64,000 bases of DNA from Epulopiscium sp. Nele67-Bin005 (GCA_002007365.1 LNZR01000080.1:1-64000); one strand, 5' to 3'. Numbered from the stretch's first letter, positions 15,428 to 40,452 are shown. The notes: generated by a model not told the origin, from the sequence alone. Numbers and translations are program-made.

Positions 15428-15439
15428 TAATAATATAAT

Positions 15440-15539
15440 CTTATCAAGAGAGGCAGAGGGAGTGGCCCTGTGAAGCCCAGCAACCTGTTAACACAAGGTG
15501 CTAAATCCAACAACTAAAAATTTAGTTGAAAGATGAGTA
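15440..15539 (+). ncRNA. SAM-I (S-box) riboswitch
   Basis: cttatcaagagaggcagagggagtggccctgtgaagcccagcaacctgt...aaggtgctaaatccaac...gaaagatgag matches the S-box consensus. Confidence 0.96.
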
Positions 15540-24613: not shown

Positions 24614-24644
24614 TTCCATTTAATAAGGAAGAAACTCATAAAAA

Positions 24645-24680
24645 GCAGATTATAAATTAAAGTTTATAGTCTGTTTTTTT
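24645..24680 (+). terminator. Rho-independent terminator
   Basis: cagattataaa-ttaaag-tttatagtctgttttttt. Confidence 0.85.
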
Positions 24681-24773
24681 GTATAAAAAAATAAATAAAA
24701 AATTTTTAAAAGATGTATATATCTTGAAAAAGATGGCTAGACTCTACATAACAATATTAGGAGAGAGGGAGAA

Positions 24774-27725
24774 ATGGCAAATGTACTTCAGGATAATTCT
24801 AACGAGTTATCAATAATAAATTATAATAAGATTTTAGCAGTAATTACGGAAGAAATAGGGCAATTAGAGTTAGAAGCTACGGCAGATTTTATAGACTTAC
24901 ACCCTATATTGCGTTTTGTAAAACATATTTCGGCTAAGTTAGGAGCAGGAACTAATTATAATGCCTATGATATTTTAAAAATAGATAAAAATAAATCACC
25001 AAAAGTAATTTCTATCAATCATGAAAAGTATGAGGAATTTGCAAATATAATTAAAGAAGTTTCTAATAAAATATATATTAAAAATAACCATTTAATTAAA
25101 ATGAATTCTATAATGGATTTTCAAAAAAAGCAAATAAGTGAGTATAGATTTGGTTTGGAGCATAATTTTGTTGGAAAGAATTTTAGTAAATCTCAAGTTT
25201 CAATGATGGATAATTCAGCAACCAATAAGCGTTTAAGGGTGTCGAATGTAGAAATAAAACTACCAATTCAAGATATTGACCATAAATTAAAAGATAACAT
25301 TAAACAGGTGCTTGTTAAAAATAATGATCCTAGTGATATTGTAATAGAAGAAAAAGTACGTCTAATTGATGAGGGAAACTCAGAAGTTGAAGGAATAGTT
25401 GAACTGTTAAATGATGAAAGTTTGCCTAGAATTAGAAGAACACTTTCTTATATGTATATGATTTATTTATTGAGAAATAGTGATGATCATGAAAGTTTAA
25501 AATTAGCCAAAAATTATGTATTACGTATTTTAGATATAGAAAAATTTTTGAGTGAGTTAAATTTATCTTCAAATGAAGAGAGAGAAGTAAATCTTGGCAC
25601 AAATACTTATGATATATGTGATATTTTGTCAAGAGGCGATGCTTTTTCAGTGCTTCCGTTTATTGGCAAAATAGAAAAAGTATTATCCGAAGAAACAACA
25701 GATACCCACAAAACATTTAAGCTTGCAATTAGTATGAAATTAAATGGAGTGGTTCAAAACACTGGGTCTAATTCTAAATCGGCATTTGAATTTCACATAG
25801 AACAAATATTAAATCCAGAAATTTCAGATGAGGCACGTATAAAAAGATTTTTCTTATATAGTAGTCTATTTATTATGTTAGAGGATAAAGAGTATCCGTT
25901 TAGAGAGTATTGGGGAACTTTGAAAAAGGAAATTGAGGAACATGGTTTAAACGAAGTGGCAAAGTTTCTCATCAATATATATTTTGATAAAAATAGCGAA
26001 CATGGGAATAAATTAAATAAACAAATAAAAGGTTTGGAGCAGTATTTTAAAGGAACAGTATCAAATGAGAGAGAGTTTAAGGACATAGATTTGAGTTTAA
26101 ATTTACTTTTGTATAAAGGGATTTTAGCAGATGCTTGTGATGAAAACATCTTGAAACCTGTTAAAAATAATTGGCGAACACCCTATTTAAAATATGTTTC
26201 AGTGTTGAATGATGATGATAATGTAGGGACGCTTTTAAATATACCTCTTGAAGTTAAGTGGAAAACACAAAGTTTGTATGAAGATAATAAAGTTGATACG
26301 ATAAAAATGGACTATGATTTAAATAATATAAGTAGTTTACCTGTTGTAATTTATCCTAATATTGAAAGAACCAATGAGGATTTTTACGGACTTATCAATA
26401 AATCTTTAAATGGAAGATATCATGTTAGGTTACCTTATATGTTAGATGAAAAAGATGTTCTTGAGCAAAAAGGACTAATTAATGTACTTATATATAATAT
26501 TATCTCATATATGGTTGTGGATAAAATTTTGAGCTACTTAAATTTAATAAAAGATAAAAATTTGAAGGATACTGATGAAGTTCTTCCGACACAATTAGCT
26601 AAAAATTTATATATTCCAGTATTTAGAGTCCACACCGTGGAGCAGAAAAACTCAAATTCTAGGGCAGGTGCATATATGGGTAGGCTTGGAAAAATGTTAG
26701 CCCAACTATTAGCGATTGATTATAAGTCAAATTCTCAAGGGTTAATATGGAACAACTCTAAGCCAAACAGGTCTAGTTATGCAAATGCTCAAACTTCTTT
26801 GTATAGTAGGTTGCCAAAAAAATTTAAAACTAGTAAAGATATTAATATTAGAAAAATTGCAATAATTGTAGTTTCTAGTAGAAAGTGTGATGCAAAAAGA
26901 ACCGCTAAAAATCAAGACAACGAAATTTATTTATTGAGTGGAGAGGTTATTTTGTTTTCTAAACAGAGAGACAAAACTATTAATTGTGAGACTTACAAAA
27001 GTTTTTCAGATTATTATACTAAAGAACAATTATATAAATCGCCAGTAATTTTAAAAGATATAGTAAACGAAATTTATAAAAAAGGTTATAAGCGAATTCT
27101 TTATATATCACAAGCTCCGTATACTTCAAAATTGAACTTAACTACAAAAATTAAAAATGAGTATTTTATGAGTGATAGGTTGATGGAGGAAATATATCAA
27201 TTTGACAATATAAAGATTTATCCTTTGTATTTTGAAGAATATTCTTGTTTTGATTTTAAAGAAAAATCTGTGCAATCAAAAGATATTGCAGCATTATATA
27301 TTAATAATTCTTCAGAAATTGAGAAAATTTATTCATCTGAAAAACAATCCGTAATGGGAGTGTTAAACTTATATGCGGCAACTAATAGTAAGATGGGTTT
27401 TTATAATGGAGTAATATTATATTCTACTTTGATGAATATTTATAGAGAGCAGAAAATGAATGATGCGATAAATAATGATATGATAAATGAAGGAATTGGC
27501 AAAGATGCATTGACAGATATTATGATTTTACTACATTATGCAAGAGCAGAATCAAGCTTTGCAAGAACTATAAAAGTTAATCCATATGAAAATTTAATTG
27601 GTGATGAAAGTACACCAGCCAAAGCTATATTTGATTTTCAGATGGAATTGAATGTATATTTAAAAGTTAATATGTTGGCGTTATTAACAGATGTCAAAAA
27701 AATTATAGATAGGGGGGACCGATGA
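24774..27725 (+). CDS. 983-aa orphan protein, first gene of helicase cassette
   Basis: Long ORF with SD ggagagagggag; ATGA overlap with the next gene. No family recognised with confidence. Confidence 0.75.
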   Translation: MANVLQDNSNELSIINYNKILAVITEEIGQLELEATADFIDLHPILRFVKHISAKLGAGTNYNAYDILKIDKNKSPKVISINHEKYEEFANIIKEVSNKIYIKNNHLIKMNSIMDFQKKQISEYRFGLEHNFVGKNFSKSQVSMMDNSATNKRLRVSNVEIKLPIQDIDHKLKDNIKQVLVKNNDPSDIVIEEKVRLIDEGNSEVEGIVELLNDESLPRIRRTLSYMYMIYLLRNSDDHESLKLAKNYVLRILDIEKFLSELNLSSNEEREVNLGTNTYDICDILSRGDAFSVLPFIGKIEKVLSEETTDTHKTFKLAISMKLNGVVQNTGSNSKSAFEFHIEQILNPEISDEARIKRFFLYSSLFIMLEDKEYPFREYWGTLKKEIEEHGLNEVAKFLINIYFDKNSEHGNKLNKQIKGLEQYFKGTVSNEREFKDIDLSLNLLLYKGILADACDENILKPVKNNWRTPYLKYVSVLNDDDNVGTLLNIPLEVKWKTQSLYEDNKVDTIKMDYDLNNISSLPVVIYPNIERTNEDFYGLINKSLNGRYHVRLPYMLDEKDVLEQKGLINVLIYNIISYMVVDKILSYLNLIKDKNLKDTDEVLPTQLAKNLYIPVFRVHTVEQKNSNSRAGAYMGRLGKMLAQLLAIDYKSNSQGLIWNNSKPNRSSYANAQTSLYSRLPKKFKTSKDINIRKIAIIVVSSRKCDAKRTAKNQDNEIYLLSGEVILFSKQRDKTINCETYKSFSDYYTKEQLYKSPVILKDIVNEIYKKGYKRILYISQAPYTSKLNLTTKIKNEYFMSDRLMEEIYQFDNIKIYPLYFEEYSCFDFKEKSVQSKDIAALYINNSSEIEKIYSSEKQSVMGVLNLYAATNSKMGFYNGVILYSTLMNIYREQKMNDAINNDMINEGIGKDALTDIMILLHYARAESSFARTIKVNPYENLIGDESTPAKAIFDFQMELNVYLKVNMLALLTDVKKIIDRGDR

Positions 27726-30700
27726 GTAATCTAGGATTTGTATTTGAATTAGGGTTTAATATGGGGATTTTATCTTGTTTTGATAAAGATACTCAAAAGT
27801 ATTTTAGAACTTTTTTGCAAGATAATTGTTATTTACCGAGCAATGCATATTTAAGCGTTACGAAAAATGAAACTGATGAAAACCAAGAAAGAATTTTATG
27901 TGATGCAACAGATATGCTGTTATTTAAAGGAAAGTTATGTGGAGAAAACTTTTTTAATGAATGGATTAAAGCTAAATCTAAAATATCTTATGAAATTACT
28001 TACTTTCAGGCTAATTTTAATCAGGTTTTTTATGAACAATCTATATTAGGTAAGCAACAATATTACCCAGATTTAGTAAAACATCAATTACAAGTTGAGC
28101 TATCTAATTCCGAAATTGAGGGGTTGTTAAAGAAAGGAGAAATGTTTAATGCTGATACAATAATTTTGATTAAAAGTAGAGGGAAGTATCATCTTTGCGT
28201 AATTGATAATGCAATTGGGCTGAGAAATTGTATAGATATAGAAGATTTTGAGCAGATAAAAATAGTTTTGAATGATGCGATTTATACCAGAAGAGCAAAA
28301 AGCAGTTTTAGTAATTTATCTGTAGACCCTATTTCAGAATTAGATTTAGAGCTAGAAAAAAACTTGGGTTCATTTATGGAAGGCCTTGCCACTAAAGATA
28401 AGCCTCTATTTAAAATGGTTCAGGCTGGAAGTTATGCTAATAGTTTTCTTAAACTTCTTAAAGTACATCGAAAAGATATTTATGAAAATTTAGAAAGTAT
28501 TTGTGTGGTGGGATATACAGATGAGGAAGTTAGTAGTATAAATTTAAATCTCAGTCAATCAAATGTTTTGGCAACTTGCAAGGAAATCTACACCCATGTT
28601 CAAAATAGAGAAGAAGATAAAACCTATTTAGATAAAGTTTTTAATAGGATAAAACGAAATTTTGGTAAATTATTTGATGTATCTCAAAAGGAATTAACGA
28701 AATTTGAGCAAACATCTAATTCTACAAGTGAAATTAATATTTCAGAAAAAATTGAGGGTTTTCAAAATTCAGCTAGGAACTTTAATTACAACGGAGAAAT
28801 TGATACTTTTAGAAATATTCATGCAAAAATAATTAAAAAATATCTTTATGATAAGGATAAATTTTTATTATTTTTAACTGGAAACCCTGGAATTGGTAAG
28901 ACAACAGCTGTAATAGATTTTTTGAAAAATGATTTGAAAAATGATGGCTATTTATTTTTGTATTTAAGTCCAAGAACTCAAGTGAATAAAGATGTTGAAG
29001 AAAAATTTTTAGACGAAAATTCAAATATGTACAATGATACTTCCGTTTATTTGACAACTAATAGTCAAGATGAATGTAATAATGGTGATATTGTTAATTT
29101 TAGAGCCAATAATCAGACTCCATTTTTAGAAGTTAAATCTCCAATTAAATTTTTACCTTTGGATAGAGAACGAAATTCAGTTCGACAAAAATCAAAAAAT
29201 TTAGTTCCTTTAAATGATGGGATTATGCAAGTTAAAGAAATTTCTAAATCTGGAGTTATAAAGCGTTTAGCAACAGGCATAAAAAAAGTTATAAGTAGTA
29301 AGTTAAGTAATCAAATTGTTGCAACTGCTACAATTCAATCTTTAAAAAAGGTTGCTCGCATCAAAACTACAGCTAAAAATTTAAAAATAATATTTGATAC
29401 TTTTTATAATGAAAGAACTAATATGATTGATGAAAAAAAAGCTGAAGAATTTATAACTAGATTTCCAAATATAGTTATAATGATTGATGAAATAACTGGA
29501 GATGAAAGTGGAGTAGCTTTTTTGGACGAGCTTATAAGAATTTTTATTCACCAGCTACATGATGAATTGCCAGTTCGTTTGCAGGCTCAATTAAATTTAA
29601 AAATTATAGTGGCTGACGCATCTATTACAAATAATGATTTAATAGATAAGCATATGCATTGTAGTCGAGCAACTAATGATAAAATTTATTTTCAAAAAAC
29701 AGCTGAGGATAGGGCTAAACCTTTGGAAGAAATAGATTTTTTATTTAGAGAAAAGTATAAATCTGTTTGTATTAATACTAATTCGTTTCCTGCCAAACTG
29801 CTAAATATAAATTATAATATTATTATGCAAACTAGAGAAATAAAAGGAAGTAAAGATTATTTTCCACAGGAATTAAAGGACACTCTAAATAATAAGATTG
29901 TGAATAAAGCTTTAGAGTTATATTTGGGAATGACGGAAAAATATCAGATTATCATTTATATTCAAGATATTAGTAGGCTTAGACAGGTTGAAGAACAGTT
30001 GAGAATATTATATAAGCAAGCAACTAAGGAAAATTTATTTCCCGAAAAAGATTATATAATGATTAATTCTACTCTAACAGAAAAGCAAAAAGATACTATT
30101 ATGAAGGTTAAAAATAGTGCAAAATTTGTATTAATAACATCTTCTGCAAGTAGGGGGGTATCTTTTGAAAATACTACGCATATACTAGTTGATGTCCCAA
30201 AGTTTAACATAGAGCAAAACTTGATGGAAATTTTGCAACTAATATACAGAGGGCGTGGAAACAAAACTATTGATGAGGAGCAAGAAAAGTATATTCATTT
30301 TTATATTAGTGATGTTTTGTATCATAAAGGTGAGATTGTAGAGGTAAGCAAGCAACGTCATATGATAAGTATTTTCACTTTGCTTATATTGCTTAAGATT
30401 AGTATTTCAACACGTATCAAAGGAAGCGAATTGATTAATAATGAACATATATCTATAATTCCGATAGGGTCAAAGGGAGTAAATGGGATTGGAAATACTC
30501 TAATTGAAAATTTGGCTATATTAGTTTCTAAATTAAAAATGGAGTACCGTAGAGATTTTAAAAATTTTGAGATACAAGTTTTATATAACAAGTTAGAGTC
30601 AATTTTAAATAATGTTACTTTTAATACAACTGAAATTTTTAATAATTATAAAATGGATAAAATTGTATATGAGTTTAAATCGTTGTGGAATAAAGGAATA

Positions 30701-31294
30701 GTTAACTTATTAGATTTTAGACCATTTCACAATCCAAAATTGCTCGGGAATATTCTAATTTTTAAGTTAGAAAAAGAAGTGACTAGTGAAATTGAATTCA
30801 GTAGAAGAGTAGTGGATTATTTATTTGAACAAGAAGGCAAAATTATTGGACAACTTATATATAAAATTTGTATTAATGACTCGATTTCATGGCAACTCAA
30901 AAATCATGTTAAGGAAATAGACTCAATTTTATATCAAATTAGGAATGATATAAACAAAAATACAAAAATTTTGCGTGAATATGAGGCAGAAGTATCTGAT
31001 GATAGATTTGCAGCGATACCCCTAGTTGCTCCGTTTATGATACACAAGTTTAATGATTATAGAGATAATCCAGAAAATGATGATGATACTTTTAAAAAAA
31101 TTTTGGAAAGGTATGTAAAATCCTACTATTCTATAGATAACGTTGTCCCTATTTCCAACGATTATGAAAACTTTCCATTTATCATATTTAGGAGTGGAAC
31201 TCTTGAGGCAATAAGATCGAAGATTTATAATAATCAGTACATTTTTTGCTCAAGTGAGCTAAATTTATTAAATCTACTGTTACTAAAACAATAA
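27722..31294 (+). CDS. 1190-aa SF2-helicase-like P-loop protein
   Basis: Walker A FLTGNPGIGKTTAV; Walker B IVIMIDEITGDES; motif III-like IIVADAS; motif V/VI SSASRGVSFENTTHILVDVP...EILQLIYRGRGN. Confidence 0.8.
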   Translation: MSNLGFVFELGFNMGILSCFDKDTQKYFRTFLQDNCYLPSNAYLSVTKNETDENQERILCDATDMLLFKGKLCGENFFNEWIKAKSKISYEITYFQANFNQVFYEQSILGKQQYYPDLVKHQLQVELSNSEIEGLLKKGEMFNADTIILIKSRGKYHLCVIDNAIGLRNCIDIEDFEQIKIVLNDAIYTRRAKSSFSNLSVDPISELDLELEKNLGSFMEGLATKDKPLFKMVQAGSYANSFLKLLKVHRKDIYENLESICVVGYTDEEVSSINLNLSQSNVLATCKEIYTHVQNREEDKTYLDKVFNRIKRNFGKLFDVSQKELTKFEQTSNSTSEINISEKIEGFQNSARNFNYNGEIDTFRNIHAKIIKKYLYDKDKFLLFLTGNPGIGKTTAVIDFLKNDLKNDGYLFLYLSPRTQVNKDVEEKFLDENSNMYNDTSVYLTTNSQDECNNGDIVNFRANNQTPFLEVKSPIKFLPLDRERNSVRQKSKNLVPLNDGIMQVKEISKSGVIKRLATGIKKVISSKLSNQIVATATIQSLKKVARIKTTAKNLKIIFDTFYNERTNMIDEKKAEEFITRFPNIVIMIDEITGDESGVAFLDELIRIFIHQLHDELPVRLQAQLNLKIIVADASITNNDLIDKHMHCSRATNDKIYFQKTAEDRAKPLEEIDFLFREKYKSVCINTNSFPAKLLNINYNIIMQTREIKGSKDYFPQELKDTLNNKIVNKALELYLGMTEKYQIIIYIQDISRLRQVEEQLRILYKQATKENLFPEKDYIMINSTLTEKQKDTIMKVKNSAKFVLITSSASRGVSFENTTHILVDVPKFNIEQNLMEILQLIYRGRGNKTIDEEQEKYIHFYISDVLYHKGEIVEVSKQRHMISIFTLLILLKISISTRIKGSELINNEHISIIPIGSKGVNGIGNTLIENLAILVSKLKMEYRRDFKNFEIQVLYNKLESILNNVTFNTTEIFNNYKMDKIVYEFKSLWNKGIVNLLDFRPFHNPKLLGNILIFKLEKEVTSEIEFSRRVVDYLFEQEGKIIGQLIYKICINDSISWQLKNHVKEIDSILYQIRNDINKNTKILREYEAEVSDDRFAAIPLVAPFMIHKFNDYRDNPENDDDTFKKILERYVKSYYSIDNVVPISNDYENFPFIIFRSGTLEAIRSKIYNNQYIFCSSELNLLNLLLLKQ

Positions 31295-36005: not shown

Positions 36006-38003
36006 ATGATGAATAATAAAAAACGAACTTTGGCAAAACAAATTAGAATTATTTTTAACTTATTAATAGTAGGATTGCTCCTAATTACAACATCTCTCCA
36101 AGTATTTAACTTACGTAATTTACTAATGAGAGAAGCAGAGTCGGTAATTAGTGGAAATAGTATGGTAGCACAGGCAGCTTTTGAGGGGTGGCTTGGAGAG
36201 AGATATGCAATTGTAAATACCATGGTTGTTGATATGGAAATTTTGCAAATGTATAATTTTGTAGATGACGAAGAACAATTTAAATTCTTAGAAAATTATT
36301 TTGCAGTTCATACAGAAAATATAGATGGAATTATAGGAGTGTTTTTTGGTCGTGAAGATGCAACATTGGCTAATTCTCAAGGTTGGAGACCTGACTCAGA
36401 CTACATAGTAACAGATAGGGAGTGGTATCAAGGAGGTAGAAATGCCGAAGATTTTTATTTAACAGAGCCGTATATTGACGCTTATACTGGAGAGTTAATC
36501 ATTACTATTGCTCACAAAGTATTAGATACAAGAAATCAAATTATAGGGGTTATCGGTCTTGATATTAGTATGGAAGTATTGAAAGATGTAGTTACAGCAT
36601 TATCAGGAGATGATGGAATGTATCTTTTCGTTATTAATGATAAATGGGAAATAATTATTCACCCAGATGAAAAATTTCAACCAACAGAAAGTAAACGTAT
36701 ATTATTACAGGAAACTGGTGGAGATTATTCATCTATAATTAATACTCCAAATGAAGTGCAACAAATAAAAACTGCATATGGAGCAGTGGCATACAGCAAG
36801 CTTCAATCAATTGATGATACTGAATTGAAGATAATTTCTAATTATCCAGCAACATTTGTAAATAAAAGAATTGGAACAGAATTAGTAACATCATTTTTAA
36901 TTGGAATGAGTGTAATATTTATTAGTGGATTTGTAATTGAATGGTTTACAAAAAAATATATTTCACCAATTGAAAAATCTACTTCAGCATTATCAAAATT
37001 CAAAGAGGGTAATTTGCATATTGATACAAGTGTAATTACGCCAGATAGCTATGAAACAGAAGTTTTAGTTAGTGTAATAGATGATGTTTCTGTAATGTTA
37101 ACCAAATATATTAAAGAAATGAAGCATATTTTATCAAGCTTTGCCAATGGTGATTTTACGGTACAACCAGAACTTACTTATGTTGGAGATTTCAAGGAAA
37201 TTCAAACTTCTTTAATAGATATTGGGGACACTGTAAAAGAACTATTACAAGAAGCTAGTAAATCAACTAGAGAGGTAAATGCAGGAGCTAAACAGATTAC
37301 AAGTTCTGCCATTGACCTTGCATCATTAACAGCAGTTCAATCAGAATTGCTTGATGAATTTAGAGGAAATTTAGTTGATGTAACAAAGGAAATTATTTAT
37401 TCAATTGATGAAATTGATGAAAGTTATACTATCATTAAAGAAATGACAGATAAAGCGACAGATGGAAAAGAAGTTGCAACACAAATGGTAGCTTCTATGC
37501 AACAAATCACACAGGCAACTAAAGAAATTTCTGAAGTAATAACATCAATTGACGAAATCGCAAATCAAACTAATTTACTGGCACTAAATGCGGCTATTGA
37601 GTCGGCAAGAGCTGGTGAAGCAGGCAAAGGATTTGCAATTGTAGCGAGTGAAGTCCGTGAGTTATCAACAAAAACTACGGAAATCGTATCAGAAATTTAT
37701 GATCTAATTAAAATTAATTTAGCGAGTGTGGAAAAAGGTGAAGAGATGGTAGGTCTTACTTCATCGGCATTAGATGAAATTGTAAAAGCGAGCAATCAAA
37801 GTGTTGATATGTCACGCTCAGTACGTAATAAAGCTTTAGGCCAAAAACAATCTTTAGAAGAGGTAGTTGGTATTACTGGCAACCTTGTTGATGAGATTTC
37901 TAAAAATGCAAATATCTCTCAAGAAAATATGTCGATAAGTGAAGAATTAATGGCACGTTCTGAGTCATTACAAACTCAAATGGATAAATTTAAATTTAAT
38001 TAA
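36006..38003 (+). CDS. Methyl-accepting chemotaxis protein, Cache-type sensor (tandem paralog 1)
   Basis: Two TM segments, DREWYQGG...[12 protein letters not shown] periplasmic domain, HAMP-like region, hairpin [38 protein letters not shown]. Confidence 0.95.
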
Positions 38004-38454: not shown

Positions 38455-40452
38455 ATGAATAATGAAAAAAGAACCTTAACTCAATTAATTAGAATAATCT
38501 TTAATATGCTTATCGTTTCATTACTTATAACGACTACAACACTACAAGTCTTAAACCTCAACACTTTATTGGTAAGTGATGCCGAGAAGGTTATTACAAA
38601 TAATACTATGATTGCTACAGCAGAATTTAACGGCTGGATGAAAAACCAATTAGCTACTTTGACAACATTAAAAAACGATATTCAAGTGTTAGAATTATAC
38701 AACAATTTAGATGACAAAAATAATTTTGACAAAATGGAAAAATTATTAGCGTCTCACGTTAAAGATAGCTTTGATATTGCAATGATTTATATAGCAACTG
38801 ATGCAAAAGCTTTTCCAAACTCTGATGGGTGGGTAGGGCCTAGTGATTATGACCCAACTACAAGAGGGTGGTATATAGGGGCAATGAATTCTAATAGTTT
38901 TTATTTAACAGCACCGTATATTGATGCAAATAGTGGAGAGTTAGTAATAACGTTAGCTGAGAAATTAGTAAACGAAAGAAATCAACCAGTAGGAGTACTT
39001 GGACTTGATATTAAGATGACTATTCTTGAGGAAGTAATTTTAAGTTTATCAAGTGATGACGGAACATATTTATTCATTATTGATGAGAATGAAGAAATTA
39101 TCATTCACCCAAATCCAGATTTTCAAACATCAGACACTAAAACTGTAACATTATCAAGTACTGGTGGGGATTATGGTAGTATGTTGGGCAAACCTGAGGG
39201 GACAGTTCACAAAATTACTACATCATTTGGAGATGTGGCGTATAGTAAATTTAAGAGTATTCCAGATATTCCATGGAGAATTATTTCAAATTATCCAGCA
39301 AGATATGTAACACAACAATTGTGGGAAGAAATTTTATCAGCATTTGTAATTTGTATTTTAGCAATAGTAATTGGAGGTTTTGTAATTAGCAAATTTACAA
39401 GACGTTATATTTCACCAATAGAAAAATCTGTAAAAGCAATTACACAAATAAAAGAGGGACAGCTTACAATTGATACAAGTGATATAAGCCGTGATAGCTA
39501 TGAAATTAATATATTAGTAGGTGTAATTGATGATTTATCACACGCCTTAACTACCTATATCAAAGAAATTTCATATATTTTATCAAGCTTTGCACAAGGA
39601 GATTTTACAAAAGAACCAACGCAAGTTTATGTTGGGGATTTCAAAGAAATTCAGGTTTCAATGATTGATATAAGAAAAACTTTAAGTGAGTTATTAACAG
39701 AAACTAATATTTCTAGTAACGAAGTTAATGCAGGGGCTAACCAGATTACACAATCTGCGTATCAACTTGCCAACTTAACAATAGAACAATCTCAATTATT
39801 ACATGAATTTAGAGATAGTACGCTTGGAGTAACTCAAGATATCATAAATTCTATTGGGCAAATTGATAAGAGTTACAAAATTATTAAAGATGTTACGCAT
39901 AAAGCTAAAGATGGTAAAGAAGTTGTAAATGAAATGGTTAACTCTATGCAACAAATTACAAATTCTACAGAACAAATTTCAGAAGTAATTACAGCGATTG
40001 ATGCTATTGCAGACCAAACAAATTTACTTGCATTAAATGCAGCAATTGAGTCGGCAAGAGCTGGTGAAGCTGGTAAAGGATTTGCAATTGTGGCAAATGA
40101 GGTTCGTGATTTGGCGGCCAAAACATCAGAAATTGTACAAGAAATTTATGATATGATTAAGGTCAATTTGGAGAGTGTTCAACAAGGGGAACGTATGGTT
40201 GCCTTAACTTCTCAATCGCTTGATGCTATTGTAGGAGCAAGTGTTGAAAGTGTTGAGCTTTCTAAGTTAGTAAGAGATAATGCATTAGAGCAAAAGTTAT
40301 CTTTGGAACAAGTTGTAGAAGGTACAGAGAGATTATCAACAGAAATTTCAAAAAATACTTCTATTTCACAAGAGAATGTAGCAGTAAGTGAAGAATTATC
40401 AGCAAGAGCTACATTACTTGAAAATCAAATGAGTAATTTTATAATAAAATAA
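38455..40452 (+). CDS. Methyl-accepting chemotaxis protein, Cache-type sensor (tandem paralog 2)
   Basis: Same length (665 aa) and layout as paralog 1; [38 protein letters not shown]. Confidence 0.95.

Follow-up and report, generated by a model that had tools for sequence, protein, structure and literature searches.

What do two very large adjoining genes do in the genome of Epulopiscium sp. Nele67-Bin005? A sequence-only reading of the locus had proposed a two-gene conflict or defence cassette that targets nucleic acids, an interpretation that our computational analysis partly supports. The two proteins, referred to here as A and B, are predicted to form a two-protein interference system of the Argonaute-helicase type that a guide directs against foreign DNA, to which we assign a probability of about 0.6.

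Two intact genes outside a defence island

In the 64-kb stretch that we analysed (the window), genes A and B are both intact and adjoin each other on the + strand, as do all their features given below. Gene A (24774..27725) encodes a predicted Argonaute/PIWI-fold protein of 983 aa, predicted to be catalytically inactive, and gene B (27722..31294) an SF2 helicase of 1190 aa with an N-terminal nuclease-like domain; the two reading frames share four bases, ATGA. The sequence-only reading had these coordinates exactly, and it had correctly described the flanks, which consist of MBOAT and AlgX-like acetylation genes upstream and a phosphoglucomutase downstream. In the sequence, an AGGAG ribosome-binding site of gene A is present at 24759..24763. 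The strong terminator claimed ahead of the pair is a fair description of an A+T-rich, terminator-like hairpin with a T run (24640..24679), whose stem of 17-18 pairs has a folding energy of -16.8 kcal/mol (z -7.2; equally stable shuffles 0/200). A consensus terminator scan missed this hairpin because its stem has no G-C pairs.

Both are real genes, since full-length homologues occur in Epulopiscium, cyanobacteria, Laceyella, Ktedonosporobacter and Proteobacteria. The genome containing the window measures 2.09 Mb, and its nearest pair-bearing relatives are other Epulopiscium genomes. Between two near-identical Epulopiscium genomes, dN/dS values of 0.40 and 0.61 (<1) were obtained from only 17 and 13 differences.

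The window also encodes a cobalt-type ABC transporter and chemotaxis receptors, and its surroundings are not a defence island. A SAM riboswitch (15438-15539) lies 5' of the cobalt-type transporter, and two adjoining methyl-accepting chemotaxis receptors with Cache domains, of 665 aa each, are encoded at 36006-38003 and 38455-40452. An empty-site test at the phosphoglucomutase loci of relatives could not demonstrate a clean insertion site for the pair, because those loci lack the window's upstream genes.

Protein A adopts a predicted Argonaute fold

Searches with protein A gave no match in Pfam, PADLOC, NCBIfam, PHROGs or the sequences of the PDB; at E-values up to 1 no family profile matches it, Pfam Piwi (PF02171) and pPIWI-RE (PF13032) included. 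An AlphaFold model built on an alignment of 52 relatives (pLDDT 84.8, pTM 0.87) was compared with the PDB using Foldseek, and the matches ranked 1 to 27 are all Argonaute/PIWI proteins (E 7.2e-6 to 0.025), including TtAgo, Hili, MILI, human Ago1/2 and CtAgo. By its predicted structure, A is thus an Argonaute/PIWI-fold protein with a MID-PIWI fold, the fold that serves RNA interference, a likeness beyond what the sequence-only reading could show. Of the two roles which that reading had offered for A, sensor or effector, sensor is the likely one. TM-scores against Argonautes are low, about 0.2-0.3, indicating that A is strongly diverged and that its N-terminal half is different. Against viral structure models nothing fell under 0.001; the weak matches include the RNase H-fold proteins endonuclease V, RNase H and RuvC. 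Profile-profile comparison of A with pAgo and pPIWI-RE gave no signal, and since the control comparison of pPIWI-RE with pAgo was also weak, the missing link proves little.

Three regions can be delimited in A, with boundaries and assignments that are tentative. Residues 1-559 (24774..26450) form an N-terminal and beta-rich region, judged from secondary structure, that appears to replace the N/PAZ lobes. Residues 560-689 (26451..26840) probably correspond to MID and hold R618, the pair Q655-G656, invariant across Firmicutes, cyanobacteria, Ktedonosporobacter relatives and Proteobacteria, and K682, which is 96% conserved. Judging by these residues, Q655-G656 and K682 resemble half of a guide 5'-end pocket; of the canonical motif in MID (Y-x3-K ... 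Q ... K), the Y-x3-K half is absent from A.

The remaining residues, 690-983 (26841..27722), make up a likely PIWI/RNase H-like region in which D706 and E724 are kept. Among 14 deeply diverged members, 13 retain D706, which closes the first PIWI strand. None of the 52 members has the acid expected on the fourth PIWI ('RDG') strand, a position assigned by topology to residues 779-782, where 779-781 read A/S, mostly K/Q and mostly A. The DEDX catalytic tetrad, which defines active Argonautes only, is therefore incomplete: D706 is kept and the second catalytic acid is absent, so A looks catalytically dead. We infer that it is a catalytically inactive long Argonaute-like protein.

Protein B combines an SF2 helicase with a putative nuclease domain

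B is an SF2 helicase, with motifs I, II and VI and two RecA folds. Its core (residues 360-870, 28799..30331) is recognised by a Helicase_C match, found in every B member, and by the fold model, which matches SF2 helicases with MrfA as the top hit. Conservation is complete or nearly complete in motifs I, II, III, V and VI; among them are motif I/Walker A (GNPGIGKTT, 28880..28906), whose GIGKTT the earlier reading had picked out and which is invariant among relatives, motif II/Walker B (DEITGD, 29486..29503) and motif VI (QLIYRGRG, 30236..30259). Residues 871-1190 (30332..31291) constitute, by alignment and model, a conserved C-terminal region with no conserved nuclease motif. Because MrfA tops the fold matches, an origin of B from YprA/DUF1998 helicases was weighed; the survey of YprA makes no mention of Argonaute. 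A PADLOC mad8 match to B (2e-4) was rejected, as the same model matches the window's ABC transporter at 5e-19.

The N-terminal 345 residues (27722..28756) display the secondary-structure order alpha-beta-beta-beta-alpha-beta, and E9, D145, D/E162, K231, Q234 and Y238 (the last two as Q234xxxY238) are kept as far as Proteobacteria. This order and the acids fit a PD-(D/E)XK core in which the motif lysine is displaced to K231; we take the motifs to be comparable to those of RecB/Cas4-type PD-(D/E)XK nucleases, with the lysine shifted. Searches of this segment against Pfam and the PDB gave no nuclease profile or structure match. We call it a putative PD-(D/E)XK nuclease domain, because no profile confirms the assignment.

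A and B form an obligate pair

Among cyanobacteria, A was identified in 35 of 291 genomes and B in the same 35, with neither gene alone anywhere, a count of strong matches only that takes in one decayed pair. Co-occurrence across genomes, proposed in the earlier reading as a check, is therefore complete for cyanobacteria (35/35). A divergent sub-family gives several further cyanobacterial copies, and fragments of A and B adjoin each other in three genomes (G427, G458 and G487). The order A then B on the same strand is seen in 63 loci, with a median gap of 21 bp.

The Epulopiscium family carries both genes in 6 of 6 pair-bearing genomes, and in three of these the genes are unlinked; two further genomes of the family (G116 and G171) have neither. 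Coordinates on the single 3.28-Mb contig of G071 put about 1.86 Mb between A and B, and G124 and G081 carry the two genes on different contigs; both are retained in each case. Tree distances of A and B are correlated at r 0.99 in a mirror-tree analysis (permutation maximum 0.37), a value inflated by shared host ancestry, so that it shows co-inheritance of A and B and not contact. The pair is obligate, and its survival after separation of the genes reveals a dependency rarely visible in defence systems.

Several loci depart from the simple arrangement. Tandem A-B-A or A-B-A-B arrays occur in some cyanobacteria (L026, L027, L043 and L064), and an Okeania locus (L023, 5786-7295) has three B-like fragment copies, about 662 bp apart, between A and a full-length B. 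In G081 (L118, 6054-6200) the B frame opens with a peptide like B's own post-Walker A segment, suggestive of a partial gene duplication upstream. The decayed pair noted above (G446:C1:2057260-2063694) is a purQ-A-B locus in which all three genes are riddled with stop codons.

ZorA- and ZorB-like genes are found a few kb from the lone A in three Epulopiscium loci, L015 (2526-4923, in G071), L016 (8002-10399) and L018 (5128-7564); those of L015 match PADLOC models at 1e-32 and 2e-74. No other Zorya gene was recognised near them.

Distribution and inheritance

Besides Epulopiscium, the pair occurs in Laceyella, Ktedonosporobacter and filamentous cyanobacteria, with more distant pairs on plasmids of Cupriavidus, Acinetobacter and Acetobacter. 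In the phylum of Ktedonosporobacter, B is present in 7 of 151 sampled genomes, and 3 of the 4 regions checked are distinct loci with A beside B. The other sampled Firmicutes gave short P-loop matches only. A viral origin was rejected, as searches of viral contigs, of phage records and of structure models of viral proteins yielded no relative at E 1e-3.

Inheritance is mostly vertical, and some copies reside on conjugative plasmids. In Nostocaceae the pair sits after purQ, where it is present at 10 of 30 sampled loci and absent from the other 20, and Microcoleus-type genomes also hold it at fixed chromosomal loci. Such stability, together with the unlinked genes of the three Epulopiscium genomes and the window's lack of a defence island, does not support the picture of a compact mobile cassette. 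Mobility itself holds for some copies, namely those on conjugative plasmids of Trichormus, Tolypothrix and Nostoc and on the Acinetobacter plasmid; elsewhere inheritance is mostly vertical and at fixed sites. The suggested search for defence neighbours was likewise divided in outcome, since the Acinetobacter copy adjoins the defence candidate PDC-S37 and the window is not a defence island. The plasmid copies, the PDC-S37 neighbour and the patchy occupation of the purQ site fit a conflict-type setting. On the conjugative Trichormus plasmid C (L007, 12128-19621), the pair is followed by two large sacsin-domain proteins.

Vertical inheritance at fixed sites is unusual for defence, and it bears on the main rival explanation, genome maintenance. 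Under it, the hosts, which are filamentous and in many cases polyploid, would use the pair on their own DNA or RNA-DNA hybrids, for instance in replication, at R-loops or in copy control, and the pair would have no defensive role. We consider this explanation unlikely. The fixed loci in Nostocaceae and Microcoleus-type genomes would suit it, as would the retention of both genes after their separation in Epulopiscium, the largely taxon-congruent trees of A and B and the predominance of filamentous or giant lineages as sources of the loci, whereas a maintenance function is hard to reconcile with carriage by only 35 of the 291 cyanobacterial genomes, with the purQ loci that lack the pair and with the conjugative plasmids that bear copies.

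Proposed mechanism

Interference with foreign DNA is our preferred function for the pair, and the architecture of the two proteins supports it. A, being nuclease-dead, would hold a short nucleic-acid guide in its MID-like pocket and pair with complementary foreign DNA, whether of a plasmid, a phage or another element. It would then recruit or activate B, whose SF2 helicase would unwind the target and whose N-terminal PD-(D/E)XK-like domain may cut it. Within this proposal the guide, its target and the cleavage are predicted, and so are the recruitment of B, its nuclease domain and the loss of catalysis in PIWI. Against it stand the low TM-scores of A, the missing profile link to pAgo and pPIWI-RE and the absent Y-x3-K, as well as the putative nuclease of B, with its displaced lysine and without a profile or PDB match, and chromosomal settings that are mostly not defence islands.

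Some of these same features would be expected if no guide were involved and a PIWI-like A read the structure of DNA or hybrids, with B as a helicase effector whose N-terminal domain is inactive. The missing Y-x3-K of the guide pocket and the displaced (D/E)xK lysine point in that direction, but the invariant Q-G and the conserved K682 stand at about the spacing of a MID pocket, and E9, D145, K231, Q234 and Y238 of B are strictly kept across phyla, which makes a guide-free sensor distinctly improbable.

Comparison with known systems

A guided interference pair of this kind would work most like DdmDE, ApsAB and pPIWI-RE, and it falls outside these families by their defining features. As in DdmDE, an Argonaute-like protein is encoded together with a large helicase. 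The nuclease of DdmD, which we take to be C-terminal, contrasts in position with the N-terminal nuclease-like domain of B. Neither DdmD nor DdmE is among the PDB sequence matches of the A and B profiles at E-values up to 1, on the assumption that the 2026 PDB copy includes them. In Vibrio cholerae, a guided pAgo-like protein of this system brings the helicase-nuclease to its target (PMC12904381).

ApsAB, an antiplasmid system of E. coli ST38, also consists of an SF2 helicase and an Argonaute-like protein (PMC11096173), and it shares with our pair the two-gene organization and the Q-G and K of a MID-like pocket. ApsB carries a QG...K motif together with Y-x3-K, and it reportedly lacks an RNase H PIWI fold (PMC11096173); in A, on comparison with this published description, Y-x3-K is missing. 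In ApsA, the DELH and SAT motifs are about 290 residues apart, motif VI reads QAVGRVER and the nuclease is C-terminal (PMC11096173), whereas in B the spacing from motif II to SAT is about 43 and motif VI reads QLIYRGRG.

The likeness to pPIWI-RE lies in a divergent PIWI protein, a helicase and a partner with a restriction-endonuclease fold. That system comprises three genes (REase first, then the DinG helicase, then PIWI), and its DinG carries an iron-binding cysteine cluster (PMC3702460); A and B are two genes with the PIWI-like one first and no PF13032 match, and no cysteine cluster is conserved among B members. Long-B pAgos resemble A as long, apparently catalytically inactive Argonaute folds, and differ in that A has no Piwi (PF02171) match, a replaced N-terminal half and an obligate SF2 helicase partner.

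No profile of DISARM, Hachiman, Druantia or Zorya in the 2023 PADLOC release matches A or B, whose PADLOC matches are P-loop noise only, which agrees with the earlier placement of this two-gene nucleic-acid-targeting module outside the systems it had listed. The pair is set apart from pPIWI-RE by PF13032 and gene set, from ApsAB by motif spacing and nuclease end, and from DdmDE by the absence of a PDB sequence relation. That it is a divergent member of DdmDE, ApsAB or pPIWI-RE is thus very unlikely, despite the shared logic of an Argonaute-like protein with a helicase-nuclease and the QG...K motif of ApsB, given these differences (in gene number among them) and a genome (G392) in which A/B, pPIWI-RE and pAgo are encoded as separate genes. 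Our search of the open-access literature found no paper on this pair; a prior description elsewhere is possible.

A probable Argonaute-helicase system in a giant polyploid lineage

Argonaute-helicase pairs such as pPIWI-RE, DdmDE and ApsAB are a young topic, each being thought to destroy invading DNA by means of a guide. If our interpretation is true, A and B extend this group by an independent family in which the domain layout is swapped. With evenly poised odds, they may be the founding member of a separate class of prokaryotic Argonaute that is nuclease-dead, has an obligate helicase partner with an N-terminal nuclease and is ancient enough for Firmicutes, cyanobacteria, Proteobacteria and relatives of Ktedonosporobacter to share it. 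It would also be the first Argonaute-type system seen among the giant, highly polyploid gut bacteria of the Epulopiscium lineage. Its presence on natural cyanobacterial plasmids and chromosomes makes the pair open to laboratory testing. It also raises the question of how self would be told from foreign DNA in a cell whose genome is present in thousands of copies.
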